NCBI GenBank assembly: GCA_001769035.1 | Contig: MENF01000014.1 | Coordinates: 1-39,437 of the forward strand | DNA from: Bacteroidetes bacterium GWA2_32_17 | GTDB taxonomy: Bacteria > Bacteroidota > Bacteroidia > Bacteroidales > GWA2-32-17 | DNA length: 39,437 nucleotides | Reading direction: 5' to 3' | Shown here: piece after piece, positions 5,564 to 33,273 of the stretch | Layout of the letters: every line of letters begins with the position of its first letter | How positions within the stretch are numbered: position 1 is the stretch's first letter | Translations under genes and position numbers: made by a program | The notes under the pieces: generated by a model | What the model saw: only the letters and a program-made list of their open reading frames with translations | Databases searched by the model: none | Told to the model about the DNA's origin: nothing

Positions 5564-5570
5564 AATAAAA

Positions 5571-5750: not shown

Positions 5751-5770
5751 AATAAATCAGTGTCAAAAAT

Positions 5771-14588: not shown

Positions 14589-14589
14589 T

Positions 14590-15354
14590 TTAATGTACCT
14601 CCTGACTTAATGAATTGTAATATAATTTTGCCCCTGTATTTAACTGAGGTTTTAATACAACACAATTATTTTCTTTTACAAATTTAACAATCGAACTATT
14701 TTTATCATGTAAATCGCCATATATTCTTGCACCTGTAGGACATGCCATCATACAAGCAGGATCAAGTCCTTTTTGAAGTCTATGATAACATAATGTACAT
14801 TTATCAACAACATGCTTTTCAGGATGCATATAACGACAACCATAAGGGCATGCCTGAACACAATATCCGCAACCTATACAATAACTCTGGTCAACTAATG
14901 CAAGTCCTTCTTCAGTTTCAAAAGATGCACCTACAGGACAAACCTGAGTACAAGGGGATTTTGCACAATGATTGCACATTTTTGGAACAAAAAAAGTTTT
15001 ATAAATATCCTTTTCGGGCAATATTTGTTTAAAACCATCTATTCCGCCATTAGGAGATGAAACTTTTATTTCACCATCGTTTGTAATTGTATATTGTTCT
15101 ATCCAATTGCGAAAGAAAAACGGTTCTAATGGAACATCGTTTTCGTTTTTACAAGCCCTTGCACAGCTTGCACATCCAATACATTTATCAATATCAATTC
15201 CGATTCCGTACCATTTACCTTTACCTTTTGGCTCTTCTATAGCATATACTGGTTTAAAAGGACTTAAAATAGAGGCAAATAAAACACTGCCTGCAATTGC
15301 TCCTGACTTCTTAAAGAAATCTCTTCTCGAATAATTATTTTTATCTATAGTCAT
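14590..15354 (-). CDS. Tat-exported four-cluster ferredoxin subunit (NrfC/HybA-like, module 1)
   Basis: A 254-aa periplasmic iron-sulfur protein. Twin-arginine signal NYSRRDFFKKSG at 8-19 plus a hydrophobic stretch direct Tat export. Four cysteine groups follow: CIGCASCARAC, CNHCAKSPCTQVC, CIGCGYCVQAC and CTLCYHRLQKGLDPACMMAC, enough for four [4Fe-4S] clusters, the layout of NrfC, PsrB and DmsB-type subunits. It would wire the upstream cytochrome to the NrfD subunit downstream. Its ATG overlaps the cytochrome stop by 4 bases (ATGA), indicating translational coupling. Confidence 0.9.
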   Translation of the reverse strand: MTIDKNNYSRRDFFKKSGAIAGSVLFASILSPFKPVYAIEEPKGKGKWYGIGIDIDKCIGCASCARACKNENDVPLEPFFFRNWIEQYTITNDGEIKVSSPNGGIDGFKQILPEKDIYKTFFVPKMCNHCAKSPCTQVCPVGASFETEEGLALVDQSYCIGCGYCVQACPYGCRYMHPEKHVVDKCTLCYHRLQKGLDPACMMACPTGARIYGDLHDKNSSIVKFVKENNCVVLKPQLNTGAKLYYNSLSQEVH

Positions 15355-15788
15355 GGTTTATGAGGATTATGACAACTTACACATTCTTCACCTTTATTAT
15401 GTTCATTTACATCAACTTGTTTTATAATGTTTTTAGGACGTGCCGCATTTAAAGCATGACATCTTGCACAAAAGTCACGACCTTTTGGGATATCCATTTT
15501 ATTTGTTTCGGGCTCATTTACATGTTTGTAACCAACTCCATGACAAGTTTGACAATTAATTGATTTATGTTCGCCATCATTTTTTAAATTAGCAATAGAA
15601 TCGTGACACATTGTACATGATTCCGTATCAACATATTTTGGTTCTTTATCGGCAATTTCTTTTAATGCTAAAGACCGATAGGGTCCTATATCTCCCCAGG
15701 ATTCAGGAAATAGAAAATATACGAGAATAAAAAAAACTATGAAAAAAAGAGCAAAAGCTATTAATAATCTTTTTACTTGAATTGGCAT
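15351..15788 (-). CDS. Membrane-anchored tetraheme cytochrome c (module 1)
   Basis: A 145-aa protein with an N-terminal membrane anchor (about 7-28: LLIAFALFFIVFFILVYFLF) and four haem c sites, CTMCH, CQTCH, CARCH and CVSCH, facing the periplasm. It resembles small cytochrome c3/NrfB-like electron carriers. It is first in the operon and overlaps the ferredoxin gene by 4 bases, so it should deliver electrons to or take them from the ferredoxin/NrfD pair. Whether the hydrophobic stretch is cleaved is not clear; no classic cleavage site is seen. Confidence 0.86.
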   Translation of the reverse strand: MPIQVKRLLIAFALFFIVFFILVYFLFPESWGDIGPYRSLALKEIADKEPKYVDTESCTMCHDSIANLKNDGEHKSINCQTCHGVGYKHVNEPETNKMDIPKGRDFCARCHALNAARPKNIIKQVDVNEHNKGEECVSCHNPHKP

Positions 15789-15901
15789 AATGATTTACTT
15801 AATTTTGATTATTGTTATCAATGTATATTCACTTTATAAATTTAAATAATATCAATAAATTTATTTCTTATTAAATGTTATCAAACATTATTAATTTTTT
15901 G

Positions 15902-15933
15902 CAAACATAATCACTTTTTCAAAAAATAAACAA
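15902..15933 (-). promoter_or_regulatory. Candidate promoter of the module 1 operon
   Basis: On the minus strand a TTG (15933-15931) is followed after 21 bases by TATGTTTG (15909-15902), fitting the Bacteroidota TTG / TAnnTTTG pattern. It would give a leader of about 110 bases before the cytochrome ATG at 15788. Confidence 0.4.
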
Positions 15934-16090
15934 TGACTTACAAGAAGTCAAGGTCTTTTTTATATATATTATTACTCTACAATACTTTAAGTATTTTATG
16001 TTATTAAACATAAAATCTCTAAATTTCGAGAATAAAATAATTAATATTACCTTCGGAACTTCTGACCTATTGTAAATAAAAACACAACGT

Positions 16091-16195
16091 TTTTCAAATT
16101 CAAAATAAGTTCCAAATCCCAAATATCAAATTCAAAGGGGGCTTGGTAAATGGGACTTGAGATTTGAAATTTTGAGCTTGGGATTTTATTTTGCG
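16091..16195. repeat. Imperfect inverted repeat (AAATCCCAAA-type)
   Basis: The left part holds TTCAAATTCAAAATAAG and CCAAATCCCAAATATC; the right part holds GATTTGAAATTTTGAG and CTTGGGATTTTATTTTG, which roughly reverse-complement them. This low-complexity palindromic type recurs between genes in Bacteroidota genomes. No coding function is apparent. Confidence 0.5.
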
Positions 16196-16378
16196 ATACA
16201 AGGACTGTAACTATGTGATTATCAAGAACGGGGTCTGAAGTTATGAATTTATATCATTTAAGTATAAAAATAATAAGTATAATGTTCTCAAATTCAACAA
16301 ACTATTATCAACATCAAATAATACTTGAAGATTGTTTTGAAATGATTACAGAAGTATAAATAATTTGAACAAAATGAT

Positions 16379-17596
16379 TTATTTTTTTCTTACACTTTCA
16401 AAACTAAATCCTTCGAATAAAATTGCAATAGCAATTTTAGAAATAAAAGTAAAGAGTAATGCTCCTGCTGAAAAAATCATTACAGCAGTACGTATTTCTG
16501 TTTCTGAAGGTATATAAAAGTAAAACTGACCTATAACATCAGGAGTAAATCCAGGTATAATTAATGTAATTCCTTTTTCGAAATACACACTAAAATAAAT
16601 TAAAACTGCTCCAATATTTAATGTTAAGAAATTTTTTCTTGTTGTTGGTATTAAGAAGAGTAAAAATGCAGTAGTTCCCATGATAATTGAAGCCCAACTA
16701 TAAATCGCAATTTCCCTATTTTTTGCAACCCCAAACAACAAGTATTTCCAATAAATTATATGTTCAGTATCTGAATAAAATTCTTTAAATAATTCTGCTA
16801 TTGTAAAGAACAAATAAATAAACATTGAATAAACCATGAGTTCTGCTATCCTGAAAATAGCTTCATCTTTAATTTCAAATTTTGTTGTTTTCCTTAAAAC
16901 CTGAAATAATAATAAAAGGATTGCAGGTCCTGAACAAAAAGCTGTAGTTAAAAAACGTGGTGCAAGTAAAGCACTGTTCCAAAATGGGCGAGCCGGTAAA
17001 GCATTATATAGAAAAGCAGTAACAGTATGAATTGCTATAGCTGCTGGAATACTCAATAACACTAAAGGAATAATAATTGATTTTTTATATTCTTTTTTAT
17101 AAAAATGAGTATACAATAAATAAACTACTACTATTAAATTAATAAGAAAGTAAATACTAAGTACAAAAAAATCCCATGACAAAATTGACGAAGGAAAATT
17201 CATTGTGCCAACAAATGGTAACATGTGCCAAAATTTAAGAGGATTACCAATATCAACCATTATAAAAGATAAACACATTATTACCGCACAAATTGCTAGA
17301 ATTTCACCAAAAATTACAATTTCCTTAATTGGTTTCCAATTATAAATATATGCTGGTATAACAAGCATAACAGCGGCAGCAGCTACTCCAACTAAAAAAG
17401 TAAAATTTCCAATATAAAAACCCCATGAAACCGAATCTCTCATGTTAGTAGTAATTAAACCATTCTGTAATTGACCAAAATATCCAAATGCACCCCATAC
17501 TATTAGAATAAGAAGAAAAAACAAACATGAATAATAAACTCTTCCGCCTTTAATAATTATTTTAAGACAACCGAGTAAAAACCTTAAGAAATCCAT
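16379..17596 (-). CDS. NrfD-like (DsrP/HmcC-type) membrane subunit (module 2)
   Basis: A 405-aa membrane protein with about ten helices, of the NrfD superfamily but of a different branch from module 1. Distinctive stretches are SVSWGFYIGNFTFLVGVAAA, AAIAIHTVTAFLYNALPARP and LLAPRFLTTAFCSGPAILLL, recalling DsrP/HmcC menaquinone-interacting subunits. It would exchange electrons between menaquinone and the adjacent Tat-exported ferredoxin. The two genes are 38 bases apart on the same strand. It ends the second module; no terminator is obvious after its stop. Confidence 0.87.
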   Translation of the reverse strand: MDFLRFLLGCLKIIIKGGRVYYSCLFFLLILIVWGAFGYFGQLQNGLITTNMRDSVSWGFYIGNFTFLVGVAAAAVMLVIPAYIYNWKPIKEIVIFGEILAICAVIMCLSFIMVDIGNPLKFWHMLPFVGTMNFPSSILSWDFFVLSIYFLINLIVVVYLLYTHFYKKEYKKSIIIPLVLLSIPAAIAIHTVTAFLYNALPARPFWNSALLAPRFLTTAFCSGPAILLLLFQVLRKTTKFEIKDEAIFRIAELMVYSMFIYLFFTIAELFKEFYSDTEHIIYWKYLLFGVAKNREIAIYSWASIIMGTTAFLLFLIPTTRKNFLTLNIGAVLIYFSVYFEKGITLIIPGFTPDVIGQFYFYIPSETEIRTAVMIFSAGALLFTFISKIAIAILFEGFSFESVRKK

Positions 17597-17634
17597 AATT
17601 TATAATTTATTATTGATTATTAAAATATTGTTTA

Positions 17635-18534
17635 TTATACACCAAAGAAATAATAAAATTTTGGTTGAGTGTTTAATTCTTCTTTTAAAACTAACACACG
17701 TTTATTTTCTAAAATATAACGTATTTCACTTTCCGGGTCTAATAAATTATCGAATTTTCTTGCCCCAACCGGACATATTTCAACACATGAAGGGTATTTC
17801 CCTTCTCTTACACGTTGAACACAAAATGTACATTTTTCGACAACACCTTTAGGCCGAGGTCTATTCCCTAAATAATGAGTTTCTGGATTAATTTCTTCTA
17901 AAGGAATATTAGGTTCACCCCAATTGAAATGTCGAGCACCATAAGGACAAGCAGCCATACAATATCTACATCCAATACACCAATTATAGTCAACTACCAC
18001 AATTCCATCTTCTTCTTGCCAAGTTGCTTTTGTGGGACAAACAGTAATACATTGAGGATTTCTGCATTGCTGACAAGCAACAGGTAAATAAAAATGACCT
18101 GGTTCAGGAACTGTTTCTGGATTATAATGAACTGTAGAGTGAGCAAAATCAATACCTTTTTCTTTTTCCATCTGCAAAACTTGTATCCAGTGAATTTGCG
18201 GATCGCGTGATTGGTTATTTTCTTTTACGCAGGCATATACACATCTTCTGCACCCAATACATCTTGATAAATCAAGTCCATAACCGAACAAGATCCCTTC
18301 AGTTGCAGGTTTGTCAGAAACTTTAAATTTCTTTCCATATTTTTCGTAATATTTCTTTTCAAGATTTTTTACGATTTCATCTTTTTCTTCTTTTGATAAG
18401 GTTTTAAAATTTTGCTGAAGAAACTCTTCTATCTCTTGCGAATTGCAACTTGCCAATGCAGCAGTTCCTAAAGCTAACACGGGCAATTTTTTTAAAAAAT
18501 TACGTCTGGAATTATTTTTTTCGTTATTCTGCAT
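17635..18534 (-). CDS. Tat-exported four-cluster ferredoxin subunit, probable lipoprotein (module 2)
   Basis: A 299-aa iron-sulfur protein. The N-terminus has a twin-arginine motif (NNSRRNFLKK) and then ALASC, a good lipobox, so it is probably a Tat-dependent lipoprotein. A charged helix with QNFKTLSKEEKDEIVKNLE follows before four cysteine groups: CIGCRRCVYAC, CQQCRNPQCITVC, CIGCRYCMAAC and CTFCVQRVREGKYPSCVEIC. The layout resembles DsrO/HmcB-type subunits that pair with DsrP/HmcC-type membrane proteins, and such a gene lies directly downstream. The N-terminal 50 residues are duplicated in the small gene upstream. Confidence 0.9.
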   Translation of the reverse strand: MQNNEKNNSRRNFLKKLPVLALGTAALASCNSQEIEEFLQQNFKTLSKEEKDEIVKNLEKKYYEKYGKKFKVSDKPATEGILFGYGLDLSRCIGCRRCVYACVKENNQSRDPQIHWIQVLQMEKEKGIDFAHSTVHYNPETVPEPGHFYLPVACQQCRNPQCITVCPTKATWQEEDGIVVVDYNWCIGCRYCMAACPYGARHFNWGEPNIPLEEINPETHYLGNRPRPKGVVEKCTFCVQRVREGKYPSCVEICPVGARKFDNLLDPESEIRYILENKRVLVLKEELNTQPKFYYFFGV

Positions 18535-18569
18535 ATTGTTTATATTTATTTCAATATTTCAAGAATCAC

Positions 18570-18785
18570 TTATTTATTAGGTGATAACTCAGGTTTTATA
18601 CTGTTGATTACAGTAAAACTAGAGTTTTTAATGATATTATCAACTTCCGATTTTGATAAAGTTTTAAAATTTTGCTTTTCAATTTTGCTGGTTTTATCAA
18701 CTTTGAAACTCGAAAGAGCAACAAAAGAACCCAAAGCAAAGGTTAATTTCTTAACAAAATCTCTACGTGAATTATTATTTTGCAT
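18570..18785 (-). CDS. 71-aa Tat-signal mini-protein, partial copy of the adjacent ferredoxin N-terminus
   Basis: Residues 1-25 form a twin-arginine signal (NNNSRRDFVKKLTFALGSF) and residues 38-54 (QNFKTLSKSEVDNIIKN) repeat the pre-ferredoxin segment QNFKTLSKEEKDEIVKN of the next gene. There is no cysteine and no iron-sulfur motif, and the chain ends at 71 residues (KPELSPNK). The gene sits between the cytochrome (17 bases before it) and the ferredoxin (35 bases after it) in one apparent operon. The frame is clean, so it is either a functional small exported subunit or chaperone-recruiting leader peptide, or the remnant of a duplicated ferredoxin gene. No named family is recognised. Confidence 0.65.
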   Translation of the reverse strand: MQNNNSRRDFVKKLTFALGSFVALSSFKVDKTSKIEKQNFKTLSKSEVDNIIKNSSFTVINSIKPELSPNK

Positions 18786-18802
18786 AATATTAAATTTAAT
18801 TG

Positions 18803-19351
18803 TTAGAATTTAATATCTTCTTCCCTAACTGGTGGTGGTAAAGGTTTTAAAGGTTTAAACCTAGGTGAATGAGGATTATGGCAATTTACACACAACAAGT
18901 ATAATTTTTTACCATTCCATTCTCCTGTACGTTTTCCATGAACTCCAACCTTCCAGTCGCGATATTTATCGCCATGGCACTGACCACATAATTTATACGA
19001 TTCTTTGAAATCAAGGCGTTTACCACTTGCTAAATGCAAAGAATCTCTATATTGAGTATCATGACAATCGAGACACCATCTATTTTCAGAATCGTGATTA
19101 AACATTGCATCAATATCATCGTGCATATCAACTAATTTTCTTCTTGTAGAATTTGGCTTTAAATCTTTATGACACTCTGAACAAGGAAAAATACCATCAG
19201 AAAATGGAGGAGGAGTAATCGCCATTTCATTTTTAGATGATGAATCAATTTGGGTTATTAAATCAATTTTTAATAATTTTTCTTTTGAATTACTTTCACA
19301 CCCTATAAAAATAATTAAAGACAACGAAAACGATAAAAATAAGAGCTTCAT
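18803..19351 (-). CDS. Tetraheme cytochrome c lipoprotein (module 2)
   Basis: A 182-aa exported cytochrome with a lipoprotein signal (LIIFIGC, Cys19) and four haem c sites: CSECH, CLDCH, CGQCH and CVNCH. The segment HGKRTGEWNGKKLYLLCVNCHNPHSPRFKPL and the proline-rich end (PLPPPVREEDIKF) mark a distinct cytochrome type that accompanies Tat ferredoxin/NrfD pairs. It starts the second module operon: cytochrome, mini-protein, ferredoxin, NrfD. Periplasmic side, electron transfer to or from the ferredoxin; direction not determinable from sequence. Confidence 0.86.
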   Translation of the reverse strand: MKLLFLSFSLSLIIFIGCESNSKEKLLKIDLITQIDSSSKNEMAITPPPFSDGIFPCSECHKDLKPNSTRRKLVDMHDDIDAMFNHDSENRWCLDCHDTQYRDSLHLASGKRLDFKESYKLCGQCHGDKYRDWKVGVHGKRTGEWNGKKLYLLCVNCHNPHSPRFKPLKPLPPPVREEDIKF

Positions 19352-19662: not shown

Positions 19663-21165
19663 TTAGAATAAATTTAAATGGCATTCGGTACAATTAGTAG
19701 TTTTCCACTCTTCTCCAATATCAACTGGATGCACAAATTCTAATGTTCCATTGATTGGAGCGTATTTTATTGTATCTTTTGTTCCAATTCCAACAATAGT
19801 ATGGCAAAGGTTACAATCTTTAGATATTACTTTTCCTTCTTTAGTTTTATGATTATCGTCGTGACATCTGAAACAACCTTTAAATTCAAAATGACCAATA
19901 TTTCTTGGATAAGCAGTGTATCTTACTTTCATTTCGGGAAATGTATTATAAGAAAATTCTGTTTGAATTTGTGAAATTGCATTTTGAATTTGCTTTTGGT
20001 ATTTTGTGAACAAATCGGGATAATTTTTCTTATAATAATCATTAATCTGATTACTAATTCCAAGAAAAGCAGAATCTTTTGTAAAATAAATATCGTTTAA
20101 TGCCTCCATTGATGCTATTTTCAAATAAGGTATTGAAGAAGATATTTTTTTGCCAGCAAAAAGTCCGTTAACATAATGCGATGGAGCTAAATATTCGTGC
20201 GATGGACGATTATGGCAATCCATACAATCCATAATTCTATGTTCTAATTTTTTTAACGAGTCTGGTTTTGGATAATTAGCCGAATCTTGGTCGGTAAAAA
20301 TATATTCCTTTCCTGTAGTTTTGTCTTTATATTTAACCCAAGGTATTGACTGACGTTTAAAATCAGAAGCATATTCTATTTCAACGTTTGGATTAATATG
20401 CCAGTGTATTCCTTCGGTATTTCCTAAAGATGAATGGTCGGCACCAATTCGCATTTTCATTATTAAATCCCATTCAGTATTTGCTGAATCAGATAAATAA
20501 TATTTTTCGTTCCTTATTTTATTTGTATAAAACTTTTGAGGCCAGTGGCATTTTTCGCAAGTTTCGCGTGCTGGTCGCAAGTTTGCTATAGGTGTTTCTA
20601 TTGGTCTTGGGTATGTTCCAAGTAAATATTTATATACTTGCCTCATACCCGAAATTTTTGATTTTACATAAAAATTGGCACCATCTCCAATATGACATTC
20701 TGCGCATTTTACTCTTGCATGTGGCGAATGTTGATAGGCAATATATTCAGGTTCCATTACTTTGTGGCATAGTTTTCCGCAAAATTCTAACGATTCGGTA
20801 TAATGAAATGCTTTATAACTACCCATTATTGTAAATATTATAAAGAAAACTGTAACAACAGAAAAAATTAAAATTCCATTTCTTGTTTTTGGATCTTTTA
20901 AATTTATTATCAATAATTTATCGTCAGAGAGAAATATGCCTTTTTTAATTTTCCTTTTCTTTAAATACATACCAACAGGTATCAAAATCAAGCCTAAAAC
21001 TAAAAAAGCTGGTGTAACCAAATATGCATATAAATCAAAATAAACATTTTCTAAATTGAAAAAATTAATTTGAATTATAAAAAATATTATTGCAAACCAA
21101 GCAATTAAAGCTGTAATCGTTCCTAAATAAGAGATGTAATTAAAATAACTACGTGGTAATTTCAT
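19663..21165 (-). CDS. NapC/NrfH-like seven-haem membrane cytochrome c
   Basis: A 500-aa cytochrome. Three hydrophobic segments lie in the first 130 residues (about 12-35, 43-65 and 98-118). The first haem site is CGKLCH, a CX3CH form followed by KVMEPEYIAYQHSPHARVKCAECH, which is the NapC/NrfH-type quinol-cytochrome signature. Further sites are CAECH, CEKCH, CMDCH, CFRCH, CNLCH and CTECH, giving seven in all. NapC/NrfH proteins oxidise menaquinol and pass electrons to periplasmic partners; this one is more than twice the usual length owing to a C-terminal multihaem half. It lies upstream of module 2 on the same strand but is separated from it by 311 bases and a hairpin. Confidence 0.85.
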   Translation of the reverse strand: MKLPRSYFNYISYLGTITALIAWFAIIFFIIQINFFNLENVYFDLYAYLVTPAFLVLGLILIPVGMYLKKRKIKKGIFLSDDKLLIINLKDPKTRNGILIFSVVTVFFIIFTIMGSYKAFHYTESLEFCGKLCHKVMEPEYIAYQHSPHARVKCAECHIGDGANFYVKSKISGMRQVYKYLLGTYPRPIETPIANLRPARETCEKCHWPQKFYTNKIRNEKYYLSDSANTEWDLIMKMRIGADHSSLGNTEGIHWHINPNVEIEYASDFKRQSIPWVKYKDKTTGKEYIFTDQDSANYPKPDSLKKLEHRIMDCMDCHNRPSHEYLAPSHYVNGLFAGKKISSSIPYLKIASMEALNDIYFTKDSAFLGISNQINDYYKKNYPDLFTKYQKQIQNAISQIQTEFSYNTFPEMKVRYTAYPRNIGHFEFKGCFRCHDDNHKTKEGKVISKDCNLCHTIVGIGTKDTIKYAPINGTLEFVHPVDIGEEWKTTNCTECHLNLF

Positions 21166-21754: not shown

Positions 21755-22477
21755 ATGACAAATCTTAATTGTGAACAATGTGATGTATTGAATAAATCTA
21801 TTTTTAGTGCAATAGAATTATGTGGCATAAAGTATATATCCAATAAAAAGTGTTGTATATCATATAAAAAGGGGATGTCAATTTTTTGTTCAGGAACAAT
21901 GCCAAGTGGAATATATTGTCTTAACAAGGGCAAAGTAAAAATTCATATATATGGTTCTATTAAAGAACATATTATCCGATTTGTAATGCCCGGACATCTC
22001 TTTGGATTAGGAACCATATTTACTAACCATTTTTATTGTTGTGCCACAGCCATAGAAGATTCTACTGTATGCAAAATAAATAAAGAAGATTTCCTTAGTA
22101 TTCTTAACGGCTATCCCAATCTTTCATTAGAATTGATGACTGTTTTGGGGCAACATGTAGAGTATTCCAATAATAAGATTATTTCGATAGCCGAGAAATC
22201 TGTTCGTGAGAGATTAGCTGAAGGACTGCTATCTGTTTATAATACTTTTTATGATGAATTTCCTGTTTCCAACGCAGATATTTCCGATAAGGCAATTACC
22301 CTTTCAAGGGAAGATATTGCCAACTTTATTAATACTTCCACCGAATCTGTTATCCGCACACTTTCCGAACTTAAAAACGAAGGTTATATTATTATCAAAG
22401 GTCGGAGTATTTTTCTTAAAAATATTAAAGGATTAATGAAAATTGCAGGCATAAATGTTGAATCCATGACCTATTAG
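21755..22477 (+). CDS. Crp/Fnr-family transcriptional regulator
   Basis: A 240-aa regulator. Residues about 25-145 form a cyclic-nucleotide-binding-type beta roll (KKGMSIFCSGTMPSGIYCLNKGKVKIH). A long helix follows, then a winged helix-turn-helix at about 180-225, LSREDIANFINTSTESVIRTLSELKNEGYI, with the recognition helix STESVIRTLSEL. Cysteines are abundant near the N-terminus (C6, C9, C23, C33, C34, C45, C55), and the C6-x2-C9 pair recalls FNR, but the exact FNR spacing is not present, so a [4Fe-4S] oxygen sensor is possible and unproven. It stands between the cytochrome modules and the formate dehydrogenase genes and is the obvious candidate regulator of either. Start: ATG 21755 keeps the CxxC. 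Confidence 0.88.
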   Translation: MTNLNCEQCDVLNKSIFSAIELCGIKYISNKKCCISYKKGMSIFCSGTMPSGIYCLNKGKVKIHIYGSIKEHIIRFVMPGHLFGLGTIFTNHFYCCATAIEDSTVCKINKEDFLSILNGYPNLSLELMTVLGQHVEYSNNKIISIAEKSVRERLAEGLLSVYNTFYDEFPVSNADISDKAITLSREDIANFINTSTESVIRTLSELKNEGYIIIKGRSIFLKNIKGLMKIAGINVESMTY

Positions 22478-23144: not shown

Positions 23145-26100
23145 ATGGAAATGAACAGAAGGTCTTTTTTTAAACGAAGTATTTTTACTCTTGGTACGGC
23201 AATAATAGTATTTGGTTTTCCAGACGTAGCATGGGCAGAAAAGAAAAAGTTTAAAACCACCTTAACAAAGGAAACTACAACAATTTGTCCTTATTGCGGA
23301 GTTGGTTGTGGTTTAATTGTTTCTACCAGAGATGGGAAAATAATAAATATTGAAGGAGATGCAAACCATCCTATTAATGAAGGTGCATTATGTTCAAAAG
23401 GTTCTGCTCTTTTTCAGGTAGTATCTAATGAACGCCGTTTAAACTCTGTTCTTTACAGAGCACCAGGCTCTTCAAAATGGGAGAAAAAAGACTGGACTTG
23501 GGCTTTAGAAAAAATAGCAAAGAACATAAAAGATACACGCGAACGTACTTTTGTGAAAGAAAAAGATGGTAAAATTGTAAACCGTACCGATGGTATAGCA
23601 CAACTTGGCGGTGCAGCACACGATACCGAAGAGTGCTATCTTTTATCTAAATTTGCACGAGCTCTCGGTATATACTGGCTCGACCATCAAGCACGATTAT
23701 GCCACTCTTCTACAGTTGCCGCACTTGCTGCTTCTTTCGGAAGAGGTGCTATGACAAATCATTACAACGACCTTCAAAATTCTGATGTCATTATGGTTAT
23801 GGGTTCTAATATTGTAGAAATGCACCCTATGGCAGCAAGATGGATAATGAAAGCTAAAGAAAAAGGAGCAAAAATAATATCATCCGACCCACGCTTTACC
23901 CGAACATCTTCTATTGCCGATATTTATACTCAATTTCGTTCAGGAACTGATATTGCTTATGTAGGCGGTATGATTAACTATGCTTTACAACATGACAGAA
24001 TTCAAAAAAATTATGTGTTAAATAGCACTAATGCTTCATTTATAATAAACGATAAGTATAGTTTTAATGACGGTCTTTTTGCAGGGTATAATCCAGAAAA
24101 AAGAAATTATGATAAAAGTTTATGGAAATATGACCTGGATGCTGATGGAATTCCTAAGCGTGATAATACTTTGCAAGACCCAAGATGTGTTTTTCAATTG
24201 ATGAAGAAACATTACCAAAGATACGATGTTGATACGGTTTGTAATATTACAGGTGTAAATAAAGAAAAATATCTCGAAGTTTGCGATTTGTTTACAAGCA
24301 CTTATCCCGAAGATAAATCGGCTACATGGTGTTATGCTATGGGATCTACACAGCATACTATTGGAACACAATATATCCGCTCATATTCAGTAATTCAATT
24401 ACTTCTTGGTAATATTGGAATAGCAGGAGGTGGTATTAATGCACTTCGTGGAGAATCAAATGTTCAGGCATCAACTGATATGGCTTTACTTTATCATATT
24501 TTACCAGGATATCTTACTGCTCCGTCACCTGATGATGTTGACCTGAAAACTTATATTGAAAAATATACTCCAAAATCAAACGATAAAAAATCGGCTAACT
24601 GGTGGGGTAATTATTCAAAATACATAACTAGTTTGCTTAAAGCATGGTGGGGCGAAAATGCACAGAAAGATACCGAAGGCGGTTTCTGTTATAATTATTT
24701 ACCAAAAAAATCAGGACTACATGACCATATGCAGATTTTTGAAAATATGTATAAAGGGAAAATAGAAGGATTAATAGCATGGGGTCAAAATCCTGCTGTC
24801 GGAGGTCCCAACTCAGAAAAAGAAAGAAAAGCATTAGATAAGTTAAAATGGCTTGTTGTTGCAGAATTATGGGAAACTGAAACAGCCCAGTTCTGGAAAC
24901 GACCAGGTGTAAATTCTGCTGATATAAAAACTGAAGTATTTTTGTTACCTGCATGTTCATCGGTCGAAAAAGAAGGTTCTGTTAGTAATTCGGGACGCTG
25001 GGCACAATGGAGATATGCTGCTATTCACCCTGGTGATGCCGATTGGCATGGTGATGCACGTTCCGATTTATGGATTGTTGATGCACTATTTAAAGGTATC
25101 AAAAAAGAATATCAGAAAACCGCCGGCGTATTCCCCGACCCAATACTTAAGTTAAACTGGAATTATGGAACAGGCGATGAAATAGATGTTAATAAAGAAC
25201 CCAGTGCTCATTTTGTAGCATCTGAAATTAATGGATATTTTATTGAAAACGGACAAAGGAAAGGGCAGGTTCCAGGGTTTGCCAAATTAATGAATGATGG
25301 TACAACTGCGTGCGGAAACTGGGTATATTGTGCCGGTTATGTTAACTGGAGCGATACCGAAGGAAAAGATAAAACAGCACCAAATTATGTTAAGAATGAA
25401 CTCGGAGAATTTTCAAACCGGTATGCAAAACGAATTGCCGAAAAAGACGAACCGAAAGCACAACAACTTATTGCAGAGGGAAGAGCACCTGGCATGAACC
25501 TTAACTGGTCGTGGTGCTGGCCCGTTAACCGCAGAATTCTTTATAACAGAGCTTCGGTTGATAGCGAAGGAAAACCTCTGAACCCAAAACGTTGGGTAAT
25601 ACGATGGAACCCTGCATTAGCAGAAGGTAAAGGTGCTTTTGAAGGTGATGTTCCCGATGGTCCATGGGCACCAAGCGAAAAATATCCATTCATAATGTGT
25701 GAAGAAGGTGTTGGAAGATTGTTTTCAGCAAAACCAAACGAGGGACCTTTTCCTGAACATTATGAACCATTAGAATCACCTGTTTTAAAAAATCCTTTCT
25801 CGGGACAGATGATAAATCCTGTAATTGTTCTCTTCCATCAAGGAGATGCATTGAACAAAGAATTAAATACTATCGGCACATCTGCTCAATTTCCTATTGT
25901 TGCAACAACTATGAGGGTAACCGAACATTGGCAGGCAGGAGCAATGACAAGAAATCTTCCGTGGCAGGCAGAGTTAGTACCAGACCTTTTTGTAGAAATC
26001 AGTGAAGAATTAGCTTCCGAGAAAAGCATAAAAAATGGAGATAAAGTAGCTGTTTCTTCGGCACGTGGAAAAATTTCAGCTTACGCTCTGGTTACAAGAC

Positions 26101-26291
26101 GCCTTGAACCACTTGTTATTATGGATGGAACCACAAAACGTAAAATACATCAGGTAGCTATTCCGTGGTGTTTTGGTTATGCCGGAATTGCCACAGGAGA
26201 TTCTGCAAATCTTTTAACCCCTCATGTAGGGGATGGGAATACAAATATTCCTGAATATAAAACATTTCTTTGTAACATAAAAAAAGCATAG
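23145..26291 (+). CDS. fdnG: Formate dehydrogenase major (molybdopterin) subunit, Tat-exported, cysteine type
   Basis: A 1048-aa molybdopterin oxidoreductase of the FdnG/FdoG type. The N-terminus has a twin-arginine signal (NRRSFFKRS, cleavage likely after AWA at about 31). The [4Fe-4S] site is C48-x2-C51-x3-C55 and C83. The active-site motif LDHQARLCHSSTVAALAASFGRG puts Cys186 where E. coli FdnG has selenocysteine, next to the conserved His187. Bis-MGD-binding regions follow, and the C-terminal domain includes FVEISEELAS and HQVAIPWCFGYAG. It oxidises formate to CO2 in the periplasm and passes electrons to the FeS subunit encoded next. Length is close to that of FdnG. The gene starts behind a strong Shine-Dalgarno, and its stop overlaps the next Shine-Dalgarno. 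No cytochrome b (FdnI) gene follows. Confidence 0.92.
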   Translation: MEMNRRSFFKRSIFTLGTAIIVFGFPDVAWAEKKKFKTTLTKETTTICPYCGVGCGLIVSTRDGKIINIEGDANHPINEGALCSKGSALFQVVSNERRLNSVLYRAPGSSKWEKKDWTWALEKIAKNIKDTRERTFVKEKDGKIVNRTDGIAQLGGAAHDTEECYLLSKFARALGIYWLDHQARLCHSSTVAALAASFGRGAMTNHYNDLQNSDVIMVMGSNIVEMHPMAARWIMKAKEKGAKIISSDPRFTRTSSIADIYTQFRSGTDIAYVGGMINYALQHDRIQKNYVLNSTNASFIINDKYSFNDGLFAGYNPEKRNYDKSLWKYDLDADGIPKRDNTLQDPRCVFQLMKKHYQRYDVDTVCNITGVNKEKYLEVCDLFTSTYPEDKSATWCYAMGSTQHTIGTQYIRSYSVIQLLLGNIGIAGGGINALRGESNVQASTDMALLYHILPGYLTAPSPDDVDLKTYIEKYTPKSNDKKSANWWGNYSKYITSLLKAWWGENAQKDTEGGFCYNYLPKKSGLHDHMQIFENMYKGKIEGLIAWGQNPAVGGPNSEKERKALDKLKWLVVAELWETETAQFWKRPGVNSADIKTEVFLLPACSSVEKEGSVSNSGRWAQWRYAAIHPGDADWHGDARSDLWIVDALFKGIKKEYQKTAGVFPDPILKLNWNYGTGDEIDVNKEPSAHFVASEINGYFIENGQRKGQVPGFAKLMNDGTTACGNWVYCAGYVNWSDTEGKDKTAPNYVKNELGEFSNRYAKRIAEKDEPKAQQLIAEGRAPGMNLNWSWCWPVNRRILYNRASVDSEGKPLNPKRWVIRWNPALAEGKGAFEGDVPDGPWAPSEKYPFIMCEEGVGRLFSAKPNEGPFPEHYEPLESPVLKNPFSGQMINPVIVLFHQGDALNKELNTIGTSAQFPIVATTMRVTEHWQAGAMTRNLPWQAELVPDLFVEISEELASEKSIKNGDKVAVSSARGKISAYALVTRRLEPLVIMDGTTKRKIHQVAIPWCFGYAGIATGDSANLLTPHVGDGNTNIPEYKTFLCNIKKA

Positions 26292-26301: not shown

Positions 26302-26964
26302 ATGGAAAATTTTTCAGAACCAATGGGATTGTTAATTGACAATACAAAATGTATTGGATGTCGGGCATGTCAAACTGCCTGTAAACAGTGGAATAATCTT
26401 CCTGCTGAAAAGACTACGTTTTTCGGAGGTGAGGGTTATCAAAATCCAAAAGACCTTTCAGGTTCTACTTATACTCTGATTAAATTTCATGAGGTAATTG
26501 AAAATAATAAAATAAAAGATTGGGGTTTTTGGAAAAAACAATGCAGACATTGTATAGACCCCGCATGTGTAGTTGCTTGTCCGGTGCCAGGTGTTCTCGA
26601 AAAGAAACCGTATGGACCAATTGCATGGGATGACACAAAGTGCCTTGGTTGCCCACTTTGTAAGGAAGCATGTCCTTTTAATATACCAAGATTCACAACT
26701 GATATTAACCCTAAAATACGTAAATGTACTATGTGCAACGACCGCCTTGAAGAAGGATTAGAGCCGGCATGTGTAAAAGCATGTCCCACGGGTACAGCTA
26801 TTTTTGGCAAACGTGAAGAACTGTTAAAAATTGCAGAAAAAAGACTTCAGGAAGAACCTGATAAATATTTTAAGTATATTTATGGAAAAGACGATCTTGA
26901 TACTGCTGTGTTGTATATTTCCGGTTTCGATTTGGAAAAAATCAAGGGGTATCCAAAAGATTAA
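26302..26964 (+). CDS. Formate dehydrogenase iron-sulfur (beta) subunit
   Basis: A 220-aa ferredoxin-like subunit with four cysteine groups, CIGCRACQTAC, CRHCIDPACVVAC, CLGCPLCKEAC and CTMCNDRLEEGLEPACVKAC, for four [4Fe-4S] clusters. The insertion CKQWNNLPAEKTTFFGGEGYQNP is typical of FdnH/FdhB-type formate dehydrogenase subunits. Unlike E. coli FdnH (about 294 aa) it lacks the C-terminal membrane helix, so the alpha-beta pair would be soluble or would need another anchor. It has no signal peptide and would be co-exported with the Tat-signal-bearing alpha subunit. It is 10 bases after the alpha gene. Confidence 0.9.
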   Translation: MENFSEPMGLLIDNTKCIGCRACQTACKQWNNLPAEKTTFFGGEGYQNPKDLSGSTYTLIKFHEVIENNKIKDWGFWKKQCRHCIDPACVVACPVPGVLEKKPYGPIAWDDTKCLGCPLCKEACPFNIPRFTTDINPKIRKCTMCNDRLEEGLEPACVKACPTGTAIFGKREELLKIAEKRLQEEPDKYFKYIYGKDDLDTAVLYISGFDLEKIKGYPKD

Positions 26965-26995: not shown

Positions 26996-27922
26996 GTGAA
27001 AAAAGAAAAAAACATGTTTATGGATTTTATCAACTCATATCAGGATTTGATAAAATCTTATGCAAAATATTTTAATGATAATTCTTTTAATCAAAAAATT
27101 GCAGAAACAAATATTCAGTTGCTTAAAGAAAAGAAATATGTGATAACTGACGAAATATGGAATATTGATGAAGAACAAAATTTAAGGTTTATTTTCAATT
27201 TAACTGAACTTCTTAAATCTTATGGAAAAGAATATATTAAAGATGTAGAAAACTTATGGAATACCTTTAATAATGATATTCCTTTTTCAAGACAATTTAC
27301 AATAAATGTTTTGCAAAATAAGCATAAAATAATTTTTGACTTTGCAAAAGATAAGGGTCTTAGCAATGATTTTATCACGTTTTTTTCCATTTTTATAGCT
27401 TATCCTTATAGAGAAGCAGTAGCAAGTTTTGTAAAAAGTAAATCCGATAGCTATCGGATTGAACTTAAAAATCATGTATCCGGGTTTTGTCCTGTTTGTG
27501 GGCACGATGCAAGTATTTCTTATTTAACCGAGAAGGAAGGTAAAAAAATAATGGCTTGCATACATTGTGGTACATATTGGTTATTCAGACGACTGAAATG
27601 TTCATTTTGTCTTACAGAAGATAAAAATGCTCTTGGATATCTTAATATTGAAGACGAAAAAGAAGTATCTGCTTATGTATGTGATAAATGCCGAATGTAT
27701 CTAAAAACAATCAGAATAAAAGATGATGATAATGTGTATGCAGTAAAATGGCGGGCTATTATTGATTATTTGAGTTCGGGAGATATTGATATTGCTGCTA
27801 TACAAAACAAATATCTTAAAGAGACTATTCTCGGTACAAGATTTAATGGACCTAACGATCCTAATATTGAATTGTATCTTAATAAATTACAAAATAAAAT
27901 TACAGAAATAGATAGTCATTAA
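26996..27922 (+). CDS. fdhE: Formate dehydrogenase accessory protein FdhE
   Basis: A 308-aa cytoplasmic protein. The N-terminal half is helical; the C-terminal half has the four CxxC pairs of FdhE: CPVCGHDASISYL, CIHCGTYW, CSFC and CDKC, forming rubredoxin-like metal sites. FdhE binds the formate dehydrogenase catalytic subunit and is needed for its maturation before Tat export. Position directly after the beta subunit gene (31 bases) agrees. Odd: a perfect 20-base palindrome, AATCCGATAGCTATCGGATT at 27441-27460, lies inside the gene and codes for part of KSDSYRIE; it looks like an inserted repeat and adds a few residues before the first CxxC. Confidence 0.9.
   Translation: MKKEKNMFMDFINSYQDLIKSYAKYFNDNSFNQKIAETNIQLLKEKKYVITDEIWNIDEEQNLRFIFNLTELLKSYGKEYIKDVENLWNTFNNDIPFSRQFTINVLQNKHKIIFDFAKDKGLSNDFITFFSIFIAYPYREAVASFVKSKSDSYRIELKNHVSGFCPVCGHDASISYLTEKEGKKIMACIHCGTYWLFRRLKCSFCLTEDKNALGYLNIEDEKEVSAYVCDKCRMYLKTIRIKDDDNVYAVKWRAIIDYLSSGDIDIAAIQNKYLKETILGTRFNGPNDPNIELYLNKLQNKITEIDSH
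27441..27460. repeat. Perfect 20-base palindrome inside fdhE
   Basis: AATCCGATAG followed by its exact reverse complement. A 16-base relative (AATCCGATATCGGATT) lies at 30584-30599 directly after the mobA stop. Confidence 0.8.
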
Positions 27923-27949: not shown

Positions 27950-29197
27950 ATGAAGAAGTATTTTTTATTTATGGTTATGGCTTTACCGTTATGTGCATTA
28001 GCACAAGAAAAACCTAAAGAGGAAAACAAAAACCTTGAACTTAAACCTTATGGTTTTGTAAAAGGCGATATGGTATATGCTACTGGAGGGGTATATTCAT
28101 GGGGAAATGGAGCACTATGTAACTTATCTGCTCCCCAGTTTGCAAGCGGTAAAGATACTGCTGCACTTGGCTTTACATCACAGCATACACGTTTTGGCTT
28201 AAAAGGAACAGTTGGAGAAAAAACAAAAGCTGGTGGTTTAATAGAACTCGACTTTTATGGTGGAGCTTTTGATGGTAATGTCAGACCTAGAATACGGCTT
28301 GCATACGCATCTGTAATCCATGGTGGTTTTGAAGCAAGAATGGGTCAGATGTGGGATATTTTTTCGCCGAATAATGCAAATACCAACAACACCAACGGAA
28401 ATATGTGGTATACAGGTAACAGAGGATTCCGCCGCGCTCAGCTTTACTTAGGTTATAAAGGCAAAGTAGGTGAAAAACTTTTTCCCATGATTCAGGCTAC
28501 GTTCGGAGAATCAGCTAAGGAAGATTATTTAGGAACAGTTCATCTCGGAGCCGATAATCAAGCCGTTTCACCAATGATACAGGCACGTCTGTCGGCTAAA
28601 TATGAAGCAAAAGAGAAAGTTTTTTACGAACTGGGCTTCTCTTATGTAATGGCCGGATATTCCGAAAGAAAGGGTGTTATTGAAGCTACTGGAACTGTTA
28701 AAGATACTCTTAAATCTAATCTTGATTTAAAAACTTCAGGTATCTGTGTTGATTTTAGTCTGCCCTTCCATAAATACTTTTCTTTACTGGGTGAATTCAA
28801 TTCCGGTACAAATCTTAACAATGCCAACCTGTTTAATGTTGCAGGCAACTATAGCTGGAAGATTGATGACTCTACAAAAGTAGTATCAACTACTGATAAA
28901 TTATGCACGGGTTTTTGGTTTAATGCCACATCAAAAATTTCTGACCATTTTCAGATTGTAATTGGTTATGGTATGGATAAAAATACTACCGAAAAAATGT
29001 CAGTAGGTGCAGTGGAAGGGAATACTACCATTTATGCCGATTTGGTTTTCCCAATAAAACACGGTTTCTCAGTAGCTCTTGAATTCCAGAATATCAAAAC
29101 AACTGTTGCTACAAAAGTTGATGCAAACAGCAAAGTTACTGATAGAAAAGATTATAGTGCTAACATAATTAATTTATCAGCCAAAGTAGTATTTTAG
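27950..29197 (+). CDS. Outer-membrane beta-barrel porin-like protein (DcaP-like)
   Basis: A 415-aa exported protein: signal peptide MKKYFLFMVMALPLCALAQ, a short charged linker (EKPKEENKN), then alternating beta strands to the end, closing with a terminal aromatic residue (LSAKVVF) as in outer-membrane barrels. Segments LKPYGFVKGDMVY, SQHTRFGLKGTVGEKTKAGG and ARMGQMWDIFSPNNANTNN recall DcaP-like trimeric porins. It is 27 bases after fdhE and apparently in the same operon, so it may admit formate or another small anion to the periplasmic enzyme; that is inference. An exact family could not be confirmed by eye. Confidence 0.75.
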   Translation: MKKYFLFMVMALPLCALAQEKPKEENKNLELKPYGFVKGDMVYATGGVYSWGNGALCNLSAPQFASGKDTAALGFTSQHTRFGLKGTVGEKTKAGGLIELDFYGGAFDGNVRPRIRLAYASVIHGGFEARMGQMWDIFSPNNANTNNTNGNMWYTGNRGFRRAQLYLGYKGKVGEKLFPMIQATFGESAKEDYLGTVHLGADNQAVSPMIQARLSAKYEAKEKVFYELGFSYVMAGYSERKGVIEATGTVKDTLKSNLDLKTSGICVDFSLPFHKYFSLLGEFNSGTNLNNANLFNVAGNYSWKIDDSTKVVSTTDKLCTGFWFNATSKISDHFQIVIGYGMDKNTTEKMSVGAVEGNTTIYADLVFPIKHGFSVALEFQNIKTTVATKVDANSKVTDRKDYSANIINLSAKVVF

Positions 29198-29432: not shown

Positions 29433-30584
29433 ATGATTAAAAGGGAAAAATTCATTATTATCGGCTCAACGGGAAGGAATAACGGAAAAACAGAATTTGC
29501 CTGTAAATTAATAAAGCAATTATCTAAAGAACATCTTGTTATTGGTGTAAAGGTTACAACAATAAAAGAAGACGAAGCAAAATGCCCACGCGGGGAACAA
29601 GGTTGTGGTGTATGTGGTTCTTTAACCGGGAGCTATAAATTAACTGATGAAACAGATAAGATTTCGCAAAAAGATACTGCAAGGATGCTTCGCTCTGGCG
29701 CAGAAAAAGTTTTATGGTTATGTGTTTATAAAAAATCGTTATTAGAAGGAATAAATGAACTTATAAGTAAAATTCCACACAATGCTGTTGTTGTTTGCGA
29801 ATCAAATTCAGCAAGATTAGCCATTGACCCCGGATTATTTATTATAATCAGAAAATTATCAGAAAATTTTATTAAAAAAAGCTGTAAAGAAGTATATGAT
29901 TTTGCAGATAAAATAATTGAATCGGATGGGGAAAAATATGATTTTTCTCCTGAAAGAATCAGATTTGATAATAATAAATGGCTACTTCGTGAAAAAGCCA
30001 CTGCCATTATACTTGCAGGCGGGAAAAGCATACGAATGGGAGAGGACAAAAGCATGCTGCAAATTAATGGGAAACCGCTGATATCTATCATATCAAACCA
30101 GTTGTTGCCATATTTTGATGAGGTAATTATTGGCGCCAATGATAGTGAAAAATTTAAGTTTTTAAATTTGAGAGTTGTTCACGATATAGAAAAAAACAAA
30201 GGTCCGCTAATGGGAATATTATCTTGTCTTAAATCTTCTAACAGTGATTTGAACTTTGTTACAGCTTGTGATATCCCTATAATGAATATTCCGTATATCA
30301 AATATATGCTTAACCTTGCTTTTAATGCAGACATTGTGATGCCTGTTTCTGAAAATAAACGACACGAAACACTTTACGCAATTTACAATAAATGTATTAT
30401 TAATGCTGCTGAAAATATTCTTAAAGACAACAAAAGAAGAATTATTGAACTTTTTAATATGGTTAATGTAACTTTTGTAGATATAAATTTTGATGAATGG
30501 TATCAGAACCTTAACACTAAGCAAAATTATTTAAACTTTATGCAAAGGCAATTTCAAACTTCAACTATACTAAAAACAGGATAA
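29433..30584 (+). CDS. MobB-like P-loop domain fused to molybdenum cofactor guanylyltransferase MobA
   Basis: A 383-aa two-domain protein. Residues 1-185 form a P-loop domain (FIIIGSTGRNNGKTEFACK, an atypical Walker A resembling MobB) with a cysteine cluster CPRGEQGCGVCGS at about 51-63. Residues about 188-383 are MobA: ILAGGKSIRMGEDKSML (GTP/nucleotidyl loop), KGPLMGILSCLK and the metal site TACDIPIM. MobA joins GMP to molybdopterin to make the bis-MGD required by the formate dehydrogenase upstream; MobB stimulates it. The gene is 235 bases after the porin-like gene. The cysteines of the first domain are unusual for MobB and could bind a metal. The order is reversed relative to the common MobA-MobB fusions. 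Confidence 0.88.
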   Translation: MIKREKFIIIGSTGRNNGKTEFACKLIKQLSKEHLVIGVKVTTIKEDEAKCPRGEQGCGVCGSLTGSYKLTDETDKISQKDTARMLRSGAEKVLWLCVYKKSLLEGINELISKIPHNAVVVCESNSARLAIDPGLFIIIRKLSENFIKKSCKEVYDFADKIIESDGEKYDFSPERIRFDNNKWLLREKATAIILAGGKSIRMGEDKSMLQINGKPLISIISNQLLPYFDEVIIGANDSEKFKFLNLRVVHDIEKNKGPLMGILSCLKSSNSDLNFVTACDIPIMNIPYIKYMLNLAFNADIVMPVSENKRHETLYAIYNKCIINAAENILKDNKRRIIELFNMVNVTFVDINFDEWYQNLNTKQNYLNFMQRQFQTSTILKTG

Positions 30585-30888: not shown

Positions 30889-33273
30889 ATGAAAATTAAC
30901 TTTTTAAAATTTGCTGTTGTATTAATTACTATTATTTTTAGTAATAATGCGTATTCTCAAAAAATAATTTGTACAGATTGTCACGAAAATCTAATTTCAA
31001 ATTCTGTTCACAATAAGATAGTGAAATGTTCCGATTGCCATAAAGATATATTAAGTGATAATCATGAGAAAGGTTCTGCAAAAACAGTCAATTGTACTAA
31101 TTGTCATGCTGCATTAAATAAACAAATGAATAATGATGTTCATATAAACATCATGAATGTTGATGAGCAAAAAGCTCCAACTTGTAAGACATGTCATGGC
31201 ACCCATCAAATTAAATCACCATCAAAAGTTGAAAACAAACAAAAAACATATTGTAGTAAATGTCATAAAACTGAAGTGCTAAAATCAATTTATCACTCAA
31301 ATAAAGGGGGAAATGAAAGTTGTAACAAATGTCATAATGAAATACTTCACAAATCTGAATTAGAAAAATCTGTTCACAGTAAATTAAGTTGCTCAAACTG
31401 TCATAGTTATGTTGTAAACAATATAGATAATCATAAAAAAGCCCCAAAAGATGGTATTTTGGCAGATTGTTATCTTTGTCATAGCAACATTGCAAAAGAA
31501 CATAAAGAAAGTATTCATGGATTATCGTTAACTGAAGGAATAAACGAAGCTGCACAATGTTGGGATTGTCACGGTTCGCATAGTATTGTTATTATAACAA
31601 ATAAAAACAGTTTAATATATCCAACCAATTTAGTAAAAACTTGTGGTAAGTGCCACGATAACCCTGAATTTATTAAAAAACATTCATTTGCTGTAAAAAT
31701 GCCTAGCAGAATGTATTCTAAAAGTATTCATGGCGAAATAGTTGCAAGCGGAAAAGAGGCAGCAACGTGTATTACCTGTCACGGCTCACATGATATTAAG
31801 AACAGAGTTCAGACAGGTTCGAAAATTGCAAGTGTGAATATTCCAAATACTTGCGAACAATGCCATAAAAAAGTGGTTGAAGAATACAAACAATCTATTC
31901 ATTGGATTGCAGTAAAAAAAGGAGTTCGGGAATCGCCATCGTGCAACGATTGTCATAGTGAACACAGCATGCAAGCAATAAATCCATCAAATAAAAGAGA
32001 TGCAATAAAAAGAATACAATCAAACACTTGCCTTCAATGTCATCAAAACTTGTTACTTTCTGAAAGATATGGACTTTCGAGCAATAGTGCTGGAAATTAC
32101 GAGGATAGCTATCATGGATTAGCATCATCGAGAGGAGATAAAAATGCAGCGATGTGTGTTGATTGTCACGAAGTTCATAAAATATTACCTAAAGACAATC
32201 CTGCATCATCAATAAATAAAAACAATATTGTAATTACTTGCAAAAAATGCCATAAAAATGCAACGGATATTTTTGCAAATAGTTACTCTCACGTAAGTCA
32301 GGTCGCTTCAGCAAAAAATATCGAAGATATTATTAAAACTATTTATATTTGGTTAATTGTTATTGTAGTAGGATGGATGTTTTTACACAATTTAGCAATT
32401 TTATTTCACGAAATAGTAGTAAGGTATAAAAAATCAAAAACTGAAATTAGAATCCCGCGTTTTACAAAAAACGAATTATTTCAACATACTGTTTTACTTA
32501 CATCATTTATTGTTTTAGCAATTACAGGATTTCAATTGAAATATCCCGATAGTTGGTTTGGAAAGGGATTGTATGTATTAGGCTTTGATGAGGTAATTCG
32601 CCAGTGGGTACATAGAATTTCAGCAGTTATAATGATAGCATTATCAGTTTATCATGCAGTATATTTAATAATAACTTCAAGGGGAAGAGATGTCTTAAAA
32701 GGACTATTCCCAAAAATCAGCGACATTTATCAAGCAATAAATAATATGTTGTTTTATATACATTTAAAAAAGAAACAGCCGGAATTCGACAACTATAATT
32801 ACATGGAAAAACTTGAATACTGGGCATTAATATGGGGAACTTTAATAATGGGTATTACAGGATTAATTTTATGGTTCCCAACTATAGTTGGGACATGGGC
32901 TCCTATATGGTTAATTAAAGTTAGTCAGATAATACATTTTTATGAAGCAATTTTAGCAACTTTAGCTATAATAATTTGGCATTGGTTCTTTGTTATTTTT
33001 CACCCAAGCGAATATCCGTTAAATTTTGTGAGTATTAATGGCACAATGCCAGTAGTACATTACAAAGAAGAACATAAACTAAAATTTTACAATGTAATAG
33101 TTGAATGGCTTGAAGTTAAAAAAGGGATTAGAAACTCTAAAAAACAAAATAACTTTACAAAACTATTTGTTTCATCAATCGAAAAAAATGGAATTACAAT
33201 GGATGCATTTGTGCAAAATGAGTTAAATACTGACAAAGAATTAGCAGAATATATAAAATTAAAAGGACTTTAA
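30889..33273 (+). CDS. 16-haem cytochrome c fused to a cytochrome b-type membrane domain
   Basis: A 794-aa protein with a signal peptide (cleavage near AYS-Q, residue 23) and sixteen CxxCH sites from Cys28 to about residue 455: CTDCH, CSDCH, CTNCH, CKTCH, CSKCH, CNKCH, CSNCH, CYLCH, CWDCH, CGKCH, CITCH, CEQCH, CNDCH, CLQCH, CVDCH and CKKCH. Five membrane helices follow at about 485-705, with histidines suited to b-haem ligation (LFHEI, FQHTVLL, WVHRISA, SVYHAVY, IIHFYEA, IWHWFF), resembling the FdnI/cytochrome b561 fold, and then a 90-residue cytoplasmic-looking tail. It could exchange electrons between menaquinone and periplasmic carriers and supply the cytochrome b function missing from the formate dehydrogenase genes just upstream. 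Single gene, ended by a hairpin. Catalytic activity of the haem domain is unknown. Confidence 0.88.
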   Translation: MKINFLKFAVVLITIIFSNNAYSQKIICTDCHENLISNSVHNKIVKCSDCHKDILSDNHEKGSAKTVNCTNCHAALNKQMNNDVHINIMNVDEQKAPTCKTCHGTHQIKSPSKVENKQKTYCSKCHKTEVLKSIYHSNKGGNESCNKCHNEILHKSELEKSVHSKLSCSNCHSYVVNNIDNHKKAPKDGILADCYLCHSNIAKEHKESIHGLSLTEGINEAAQCWDCHGSHSIVIITNKNSLIYPTNLVKTCGKCHDNPEFIKKHSFAVKMPSRMYSKSIHGEIVASGKEAATCITCHGSHDIKNRVQTGSKIASVNIPNTCEQCHKKVVEEYKQSIHWIAVKKGVRESPSCNDCHSEHSMQAINPSNKRDAIKRIQSNTCLQCHQNLLLSERYGLSSNSAGNYEDSYHGLASSRGDKNAAMCVDCHEVHKILPKDNPASSINKNNIVITCKKCHKNATDIFANSYSHVSQVASAKNIEDIIKTIYIWLIVIVVGWMFLHNLAILFHEIVVRYKKSKTEIRIPRFTKNELFQHTVLLTSFIVLAITGFQLKYPDSWFGKGLYVLGFDEVIRQWVHRISAVIMIALSVYHAVYLIITSRGRDVLKGLFPKISDIYQAINNMLFYIHLKKKQPEFDNYNYMEKLEYWALIWGTLIMGITGLILWFPTIVGTWAPIWLIKVSQIIHFYEAILATLAIIIWHWFFVIFHPSEYPLNFVSINGTMPVVHYKEEHKLKFYNVIVEWLEVKKGIRNSKKQNNFTKLFVSSIEKNGITMDAFVQNELNTDKELAEYIKLKGL

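Follow-up and report, generated by a model that had tools for sequence, protein, structure and literature searches.

A CbcL-type 16-haem cytochrome c/cytochrome b fusion protein beside a formate dehydrogenase without a membrane subunit in an uncultured member of the Bacteroidota

Background

The closest described counterparts of the protein considered here are the CbcL/MtrH/MtoC quinone oxidoreductases (Geobacter sulfurreducens CbcL, Rhodoferax MtrH and Dechloromonas MtoC), in which c-type haems occupy the N-terminal part of the chain and a cytochrome b module resembling FdnI or HydC its C-terminal part (PMC6295460). Published homologues carry 3-23 CX2CH motifs in chains of 416-1034 residues and come from 15 phyla, five Bacteroidetes and two Ignavibacteriae sequences among them; most have six transmembrane helices, and a few have five or four (PMC6295460). 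CbcL itself is a nine-haem inner-membrane quinone oxidoreductase, required for acceptors below -100 mV, and its haems are reported to be six-coordinate with bis-histidine ligation (PMC9129911). A protein of another family, the NapC/NirT-type cytochrome ImcH, is recognized by three N-terminal transmembrane helices, an atypical CX3CH motif and 5-9 CX2CH motifs (PMC6295460).

A second point of reference is the periplasmic FdhAB of Desulfovibrio, which has no membrane subunit and relies on a cytochrome c route (through cytochrome c3 and Qrc) to menaquinone. The enzyme of Desulfovibrio alaskensis is soluble and lacks a cytochrome subunit, its probable acceptor being Tp1-c3 (PMC4215793).

The stretch of DNA analysed here (‘the window’; all 39,437 nucleotides of contig MENF01000014.1 from Bacteroidetes bacterium GWA2_32_17) encodes, at 30889-33273 on the forward strand, a 794-residue fusion of a 16-haem cytochrome c and a di-haem cytochrome b, lying next to a formate dehydrogenase. 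The original prediction for this locus held that the fusion takes the place of the small cytochrome b (FdnI) through which related formate dehydrogenases reach menaquinone, and treated it as a protein that could not be named. A name is in fact available: the architecture of the fusion is that of the already described CbcL/MtrH/MtoC enzymes (PMC6295460), an assignment drawn from the open reading frame, its CxxCH motifs, Pfam matches, orthologues and a tree.

Architecture of the fusion protein

The chain runs from a 16-haem ‘wire’ through a connecting helix to a whole FdnI-like module. It begins with a putative N-terminal signal sequence (residues ~1-24; 30889-30960, forward strand), marked by a hydrophobic peak at residue 8 and a model helix at residues 5-17, and continues into the periplasmic c domain (residues 28-468; 30970-32292, forward strand). 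The sixteen CxxCH sites predicted within residues 28-455 proved to be an exact count, with all 32 cysteines of the protein inside the motifs; about 0.07 such motifs would be expected by chance at this composition (794 x (32/794)^2 x (46/794)). In an alignment of 36 homologues, taken from independently fetched contigs, exactly 16 further histidines of the c domain, outside the CxxCH motifs, are conserved (residues 41, 59, 85, 106, 136, 163, 182, 210, 231, 281, 301, 338, 359, 409, 430 and 468), each in 89-100% of the rows having the position. Because there is one conserved free histidine for every CxxCH, the c haems are probably all bis-histidine ligated and six-coordinate, with no vacant haem for catalysis.

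Pfam matches to Cytochrome_C7 and Cytochrom_c3_2 exceed their cut-offs over the haem part of the protein; a PF22113 domain was also found in it by hmmscan, and a PF22113 profile search of its own genome returned no match. Identity with HmcA, the 16-haem high-molecular-weight cytochrome c of Desulfovibrio, was considered and rejected (23.6 bits with the NCBIfam HmcA model, against a cut-off of 400); HmcA is equal in haem number but has no membrane domain.

The five C-terminal helices of the original prediction are present in an AlphaFold2 model of the protein (mean pLDDT 77, pTM 0.59; weak around residues 107-141), at residues 473-511, 527-551, 568-595, 638-662 and 673-704, and the expected in-membrane histidines are invariant. 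One of them, H500, lies in the connecting transmembrane helix (residues 473-511; 32305-32421, forward strand), and four others (H533, H575, H683 and H698, invariant among the 36 homologues) lie in the di-haem b module (residues 518-749; 32440-33135, forward strand). Comparison by HMM with FdnI, the cytochrome b556 of Escherichia coli formate dehydrogenase-N (1kqf chain C), gave an E value of 3.2e-11 with all four ligand positions aligned: in the profile alignment these four histidines fall on FdnI H18, H57, H155 and H169, the b-haem ligands of that protein. A Foldseek search with the model returned FdnI as its single significant solved match (E 2e-4, TM 0.78 by target), and VIA-align placed 209 of the 216 FdnI residues on residues 518-749 (Z 15.3), the next match being hydrogenase-1 cytochrome b (Z 11.3). 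Residues 531-706 also match the Pfam family Ni_hydr_CYTB (PF01292; 54.9 bits, cut-off 30.1), so that an HMM check for a cytochrome b561/FdnI-like domain was positive at that level, but the NCBIfam model of FdnI itself, TIGR01583, scored 45.7 bits and thus fell below its cut-off of 115.85.

With a whole FdnI-like module fused to a 16-haem wire, the natural reading of the protein is the one first proposed, a single chain that exchanges electrons between quinone and the periplasm. Unlike FdnI, however, the b module of the fusion is part of a multihaem chain and is retained in relatives that have no formate dehydrogenase.

The fusion thus shares with the CbcL/MtrH/MtoC enzymes an N-terminal multihaem domain, bis-histidine haems only and a C-terminal FdnI-like module; its length and haem count lie inside the published range, and the phyla are shared. 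It differs from CbcL in having sixteen haems rather than nine, and from most of the family in its predicted membrane part, where one connecting helix is followed by four helices of the FdnI type and then a soluble tail (besides the signal sequence) in place of six helices; five-helix members have been published. It differs also in its neighbours, an ImcH-like gene and an fdh block. Common descent with Geobacter CbcL is suggested by the shared architecture and the published description rather than by direct sequence comparison, the contig search for homologues having yielded 80 loci, none of them named Geobacter; the closest approach to the three named proteins was the homologue in a named Geothrix isolate (SG200), ~32-36% identical to the fusion. 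The literature yielded no biochemistry of any 16-haem member, and a search worded for a 16-haem/b561 protein of Bacteroidetes brought up no described example.

Distribution, the ImcH-like neighbour and a probable general role

Nearly every orthologue (48-74% identity) retains the sixteen CxxCH motifs; a few have 11. Of the 43 proteins placed in a tree, 23 make up a single clade of the 16-haem type (support 100/100; two of its members have 11 haems), drawn from Bacteroidales, other Bacteroidota and Ignavibacteria, in which the window protein groups with those of its congeners; nine-haem and 19-haem proteins fall outside it. Since the nearest tree neighbours of the fusion are not nine-haem proteins, the 16-haem type may constitute a separate subfamily. 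The plasmid collection that was searched contained no relative.

Co-occurrence with fdhA and fdhB across Bacteroidota, which had been put forward as a check on the proposed link to formate dehydrogenase, is suggestive but weak. Two genomes (G455 and G420) have both FdhA and the fusion. Four near-complete relatives (the congeners G001, G003 and G004, together with G048), on the other hand, have fusion orthologues and no FdnG-type FdhA above the model cut-off, although the assemblies of relatives close to the window are drafts split over many contigs, in which absence from the contig set is not proof; and no match to the fusion was obtained in G056, a genome that does have FdhA.

In the three congeners the fusion gene and an ImcH-like gene are divergent neighbours, ~240-246 bases apart, with a 19-haem paralogue of the fusion close by. 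ImcH-like genes lie near many other CbcL-type genes, and the two kinds occur together in Geobacter as well. The ImcH-like protein of the window (19663-21165, reverse strand), assigned through PF03264 and synteny, has the features described for ImcH, namely transmembrane helices at residues 22, 57 and 106, a single CX3CH motif (CGKLCH at 129) and six CX2CH motifs. Its gene and that of the fusion are 9.7 kb apart in the window, and crp, fdhA, fdhB, fdhE, a porin gene and mobBA lie between them. A search for a trace of block insertion in the ImcH-CbcL spacer met sequence too AT-rich to align, and base composition gave no clear signal of foreign origin for the fdh genes (third-position G+C of 0.18-0.27 within the block and 0.16-0.24 in the flanking sequence).

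The fusion is most probably a quinone oxidoreductase of the CbcL/MtrH/MtoC type, belonging to a 16-haem subfamily of Bacteroidota and Ignavibacteria and serving as a general carrier between menaquinone and the periplasm that was in place before the fdh genes. Two b haems in the FdnI-like module would span the inner membrane and exchange electrons with menaquinone, and those electrons would pass to or from the sixteen periplasmic c haems and then other periplasmic cytochromes; lacking an open haem site, the fusion would act as an electron carrier and not as a catalyst at its haems. Its presence in the genus, next to an ImcH-like quinol oxidase, would not have depended on formate dehydrogenase. 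In this light an uncultured genus of the Bacteroidota, a group little studied for long-range electron transfer, appears to have inherited a quinone cytochrome of the CbcL type together with its ImcH neighbour.

The direction of electron flow through the fusion cannot be read from its sequence. One possibility, to which we give somewhat less than even weight, is that it works mainly outward, as a menaquinol oxidase that serves extracellular acceptors together with ImcH, with formate merely feeding the same periplasmic pool. The conservation of the ImcH-like neighbour within the genus is in keeping with such a role, as is the use of CbcL and ImcH by Geobacter for extracellular reduction (PMC6295460, PMC9129911). 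So, too, are the neighbours of the fusion in family f68, which to judge by its named loci probably represents Melioribacteraceae/Ignavibacteria: cytochromes with 13, 19, 4, 14 and 7-10 haems, a porin-like protein, FeS and NrfD proteins and a two-component system, a set of genes suggestive of electrons being moved across the envelope. That cluster's porin and 14-haem genes, however, were not detected in the genome of the window or in its congeners, and no other outer-membrane conduit was identified, so that an extracellular role in this genome is putative; moreover, the published comparison of CbcL/MtrH/MtoC proteins found no feature that separates quinol oxidation from quinone reduction (PMC6295460).

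Several further gene arrangements were seen in the course of these comparisons. The 19-haem paralogue, which stands beside the 16-haem gene in the congeners, is on another contig in the genome of the window (L036:9219-12002, contig C111); it is of CbcL type, with 19 CxxCH motifs and an extra C-terminal membrane helix. Following the ImcH-like gene, positions 13383-19351 of the window (reverse strand) hold two modules of a tetrahaem cytochrome, a four-cluster ferredoxin and an NrfD-type membrane protein, and the 405-residue protein at 16379-17596 exceeds the NCBIfam cut-off for DsrP (382.5 against 350); only one such module is found in G001, and none at that place in G003 or G004. The Ignavibacteria cytochrome cluster includes response regulators that carry a fused Pfam GcvH domain (L084:4977-6948), and elsewhere in the genome of the window (L209:1150-5697, contig C129) genes for membrane-anchored proteins that resemble GcvH on visual inspection lie on either side of a pair of HmcB/HmcC-like FeS and NrfD genes.

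The formate dehydrogenase block

The fdh block, all on the forward strand, begins with a CRP/FNR regulator (21755-22477), which has a homologue next to fdhA in both G455 and G588 and one that shares a contig with fdhA in G056. It continues with fdhA, encoding an FdnG-type formate dehydrogenase alpha subunit with an N-terminal RR motif (23145-26291; TIGR01553, 1211.6 bits, cut-off 814.2), fdhB, encoding an HmcB/HybA-like ferredoxin subunit of 220 residues (26302-26964), a gene for an fdhE-like accessory protein (26996-27922; TIGR01562 E 4.5e-14, below the curated cut-off), a gene for an outer-membrane porin-like protein (27950-29197) and, as its last member, a MobB-MobA-like fusion for Mo-bis-MGD synthesis (29433-30584; PF12804, 111.5 bits). 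Porin homologues are found in the fdh loci of G420 (49%) and G506 (50%), the latter also with a mobA-like gene, and the porin and mobBA genes are for this reason assigned to fdh. Matches to an FNR-box pattern were no more numerous than chance, and a promoter and terminator scan gave promoter-like sites at chance level.

At the site where relatives have an in-frame TGA, FdhA of the window has cysteine (LCHSS). A single such TGA splits the gene in L226:7728-10763 (reverse strand), L227:2030-5062 (reverse strand) and L181:6013-9069 (forward strand), which suggests selenocysteine in these relatives and a cysteine form in the window sequence and those closest to it.

The prediction that this formate dehydrogenase lacks its own cytochrome b subunit was borne out and can be extended: FdhAB has no membrane subunit, and FdhB stops directly before the C-terminal anchor helix present in GWA2_30_7 (G455), where fdhB is followed by a HybB/HmcC-type NrfD gene that is missing from the window. 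FdhB of G506 and G056 likewise has the helix and is followed by a HybB/NrfD gene. In three FdhA-bearing relatives, then, the partner encoded after fdhB is a HybB/NrfD protein and not a cytochrome b. The genome of the window (95% complete) has, as predicted, no small FdnI gene, its only two PF01292 proteins being the fusion and the 19-haem paralogue. An assembly fault at the end of fdhB was ruled out by G588, a member of another family, in which an equally short FdhB is followed directly by fdhE (the contig ending just past that gene); the short form is therefore a real and shared condition. FdhA of G588 is 93% identical to that of the window, and this identity across families, combined with the lack of FdhA in the congeners, points to horizontal transfer. 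Since FdhB has no anchor helix and a membrane subunit is missing, FdhAB is probably soluble in the periplasm and in need of a cytochrome partner; loss of the HybB/NrfD subunit and of the anchor would leave delivery of its electrons to periplasmic cytochromes. The same fdhAB lineage, with and without HybB/NrfD, offers a natural experiment in how a periplasmic dehydrogenase finds a new quinone route.

Whether FdhAB relies on the fusion as its working partner on the quinone side, with electrons passing from FdhA through FdhB, the sixteen c haems and the b haems to menaquinone much as in Desulfovibrio (where FdhAB of D. alaskensis probably uses Tp1-c3; PMC4215793), can be answered only with a tentative ‘perhaps’, tilted toward no. 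The fdh block and the fusion are adjacent on the same strand, the form without membrane subunit and anchor is common to G588, and PF01292 proteins are as few in this genome as noted above. The adjacency, however, looks like the outcome of the block having come to lie between the ImcH and CbcL genes, and mobBA is set off from its two neighbours by 235 and 304 bases, so that a single transcript is not implied. Orthologues are kept without FdhA in the four relatives named above, and none of the 80 named loci holding CbcL-type genes has an fdhA match. The fusion, which may serve as one entry point of FdhAB electrons to the quinone pool, stands besides on an equal footing with other plausible partners: ImcH, both tetrahaem-FeS-NrfD modules and the 19-haem paralogue. 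Of the role first proposed, what stands is a plausible partnership with an fdhAB that has no membrane subunit; what does not is that the fusion exists in order to replace FdnI.

A related proposal, which we consider rather doubtful, is that FdhAB, having lost its membrane subunit, uses the resident CbcL-type fusion as its menaquinone reductase, a general hub thereby replacing a dedicated subunit following the horizontal transfer of fdhAB. If true, this would be a single-chain counterpart, with b haems, of the Desulfovibrio FdhAB-c3-Qrc route, in which Qrc instead combines an NrfD-type subunit with a separate cytochrome. That the fusion arose specifically as a replacement of FdnI for formate dehydrogenase is highly improbable: beyond the FdnI-like module and the adjacency of fdh nothing speaks for it, and it is contradicted by orthologues in fdh-less genomes, by the ImcH neighbour, by G056 (which has FdhA with HybB/NrfD and no fusion match) and by a fusion far more widespread than FdhA (matched in 63 of 395 phylum genomes at E 1e-20, ~23 of them orthologue-like, against 2 for FdhA).

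At the other end of the window, positions 152-7063 (forward strand) encode a lantibiotic dehydratase whose N- and C-terminal parts come from separate genes, together with a C39-peptidase ABC transporter and a protein of the HlyD type, and probably represent a lanthipeptide-like peptide export locus.
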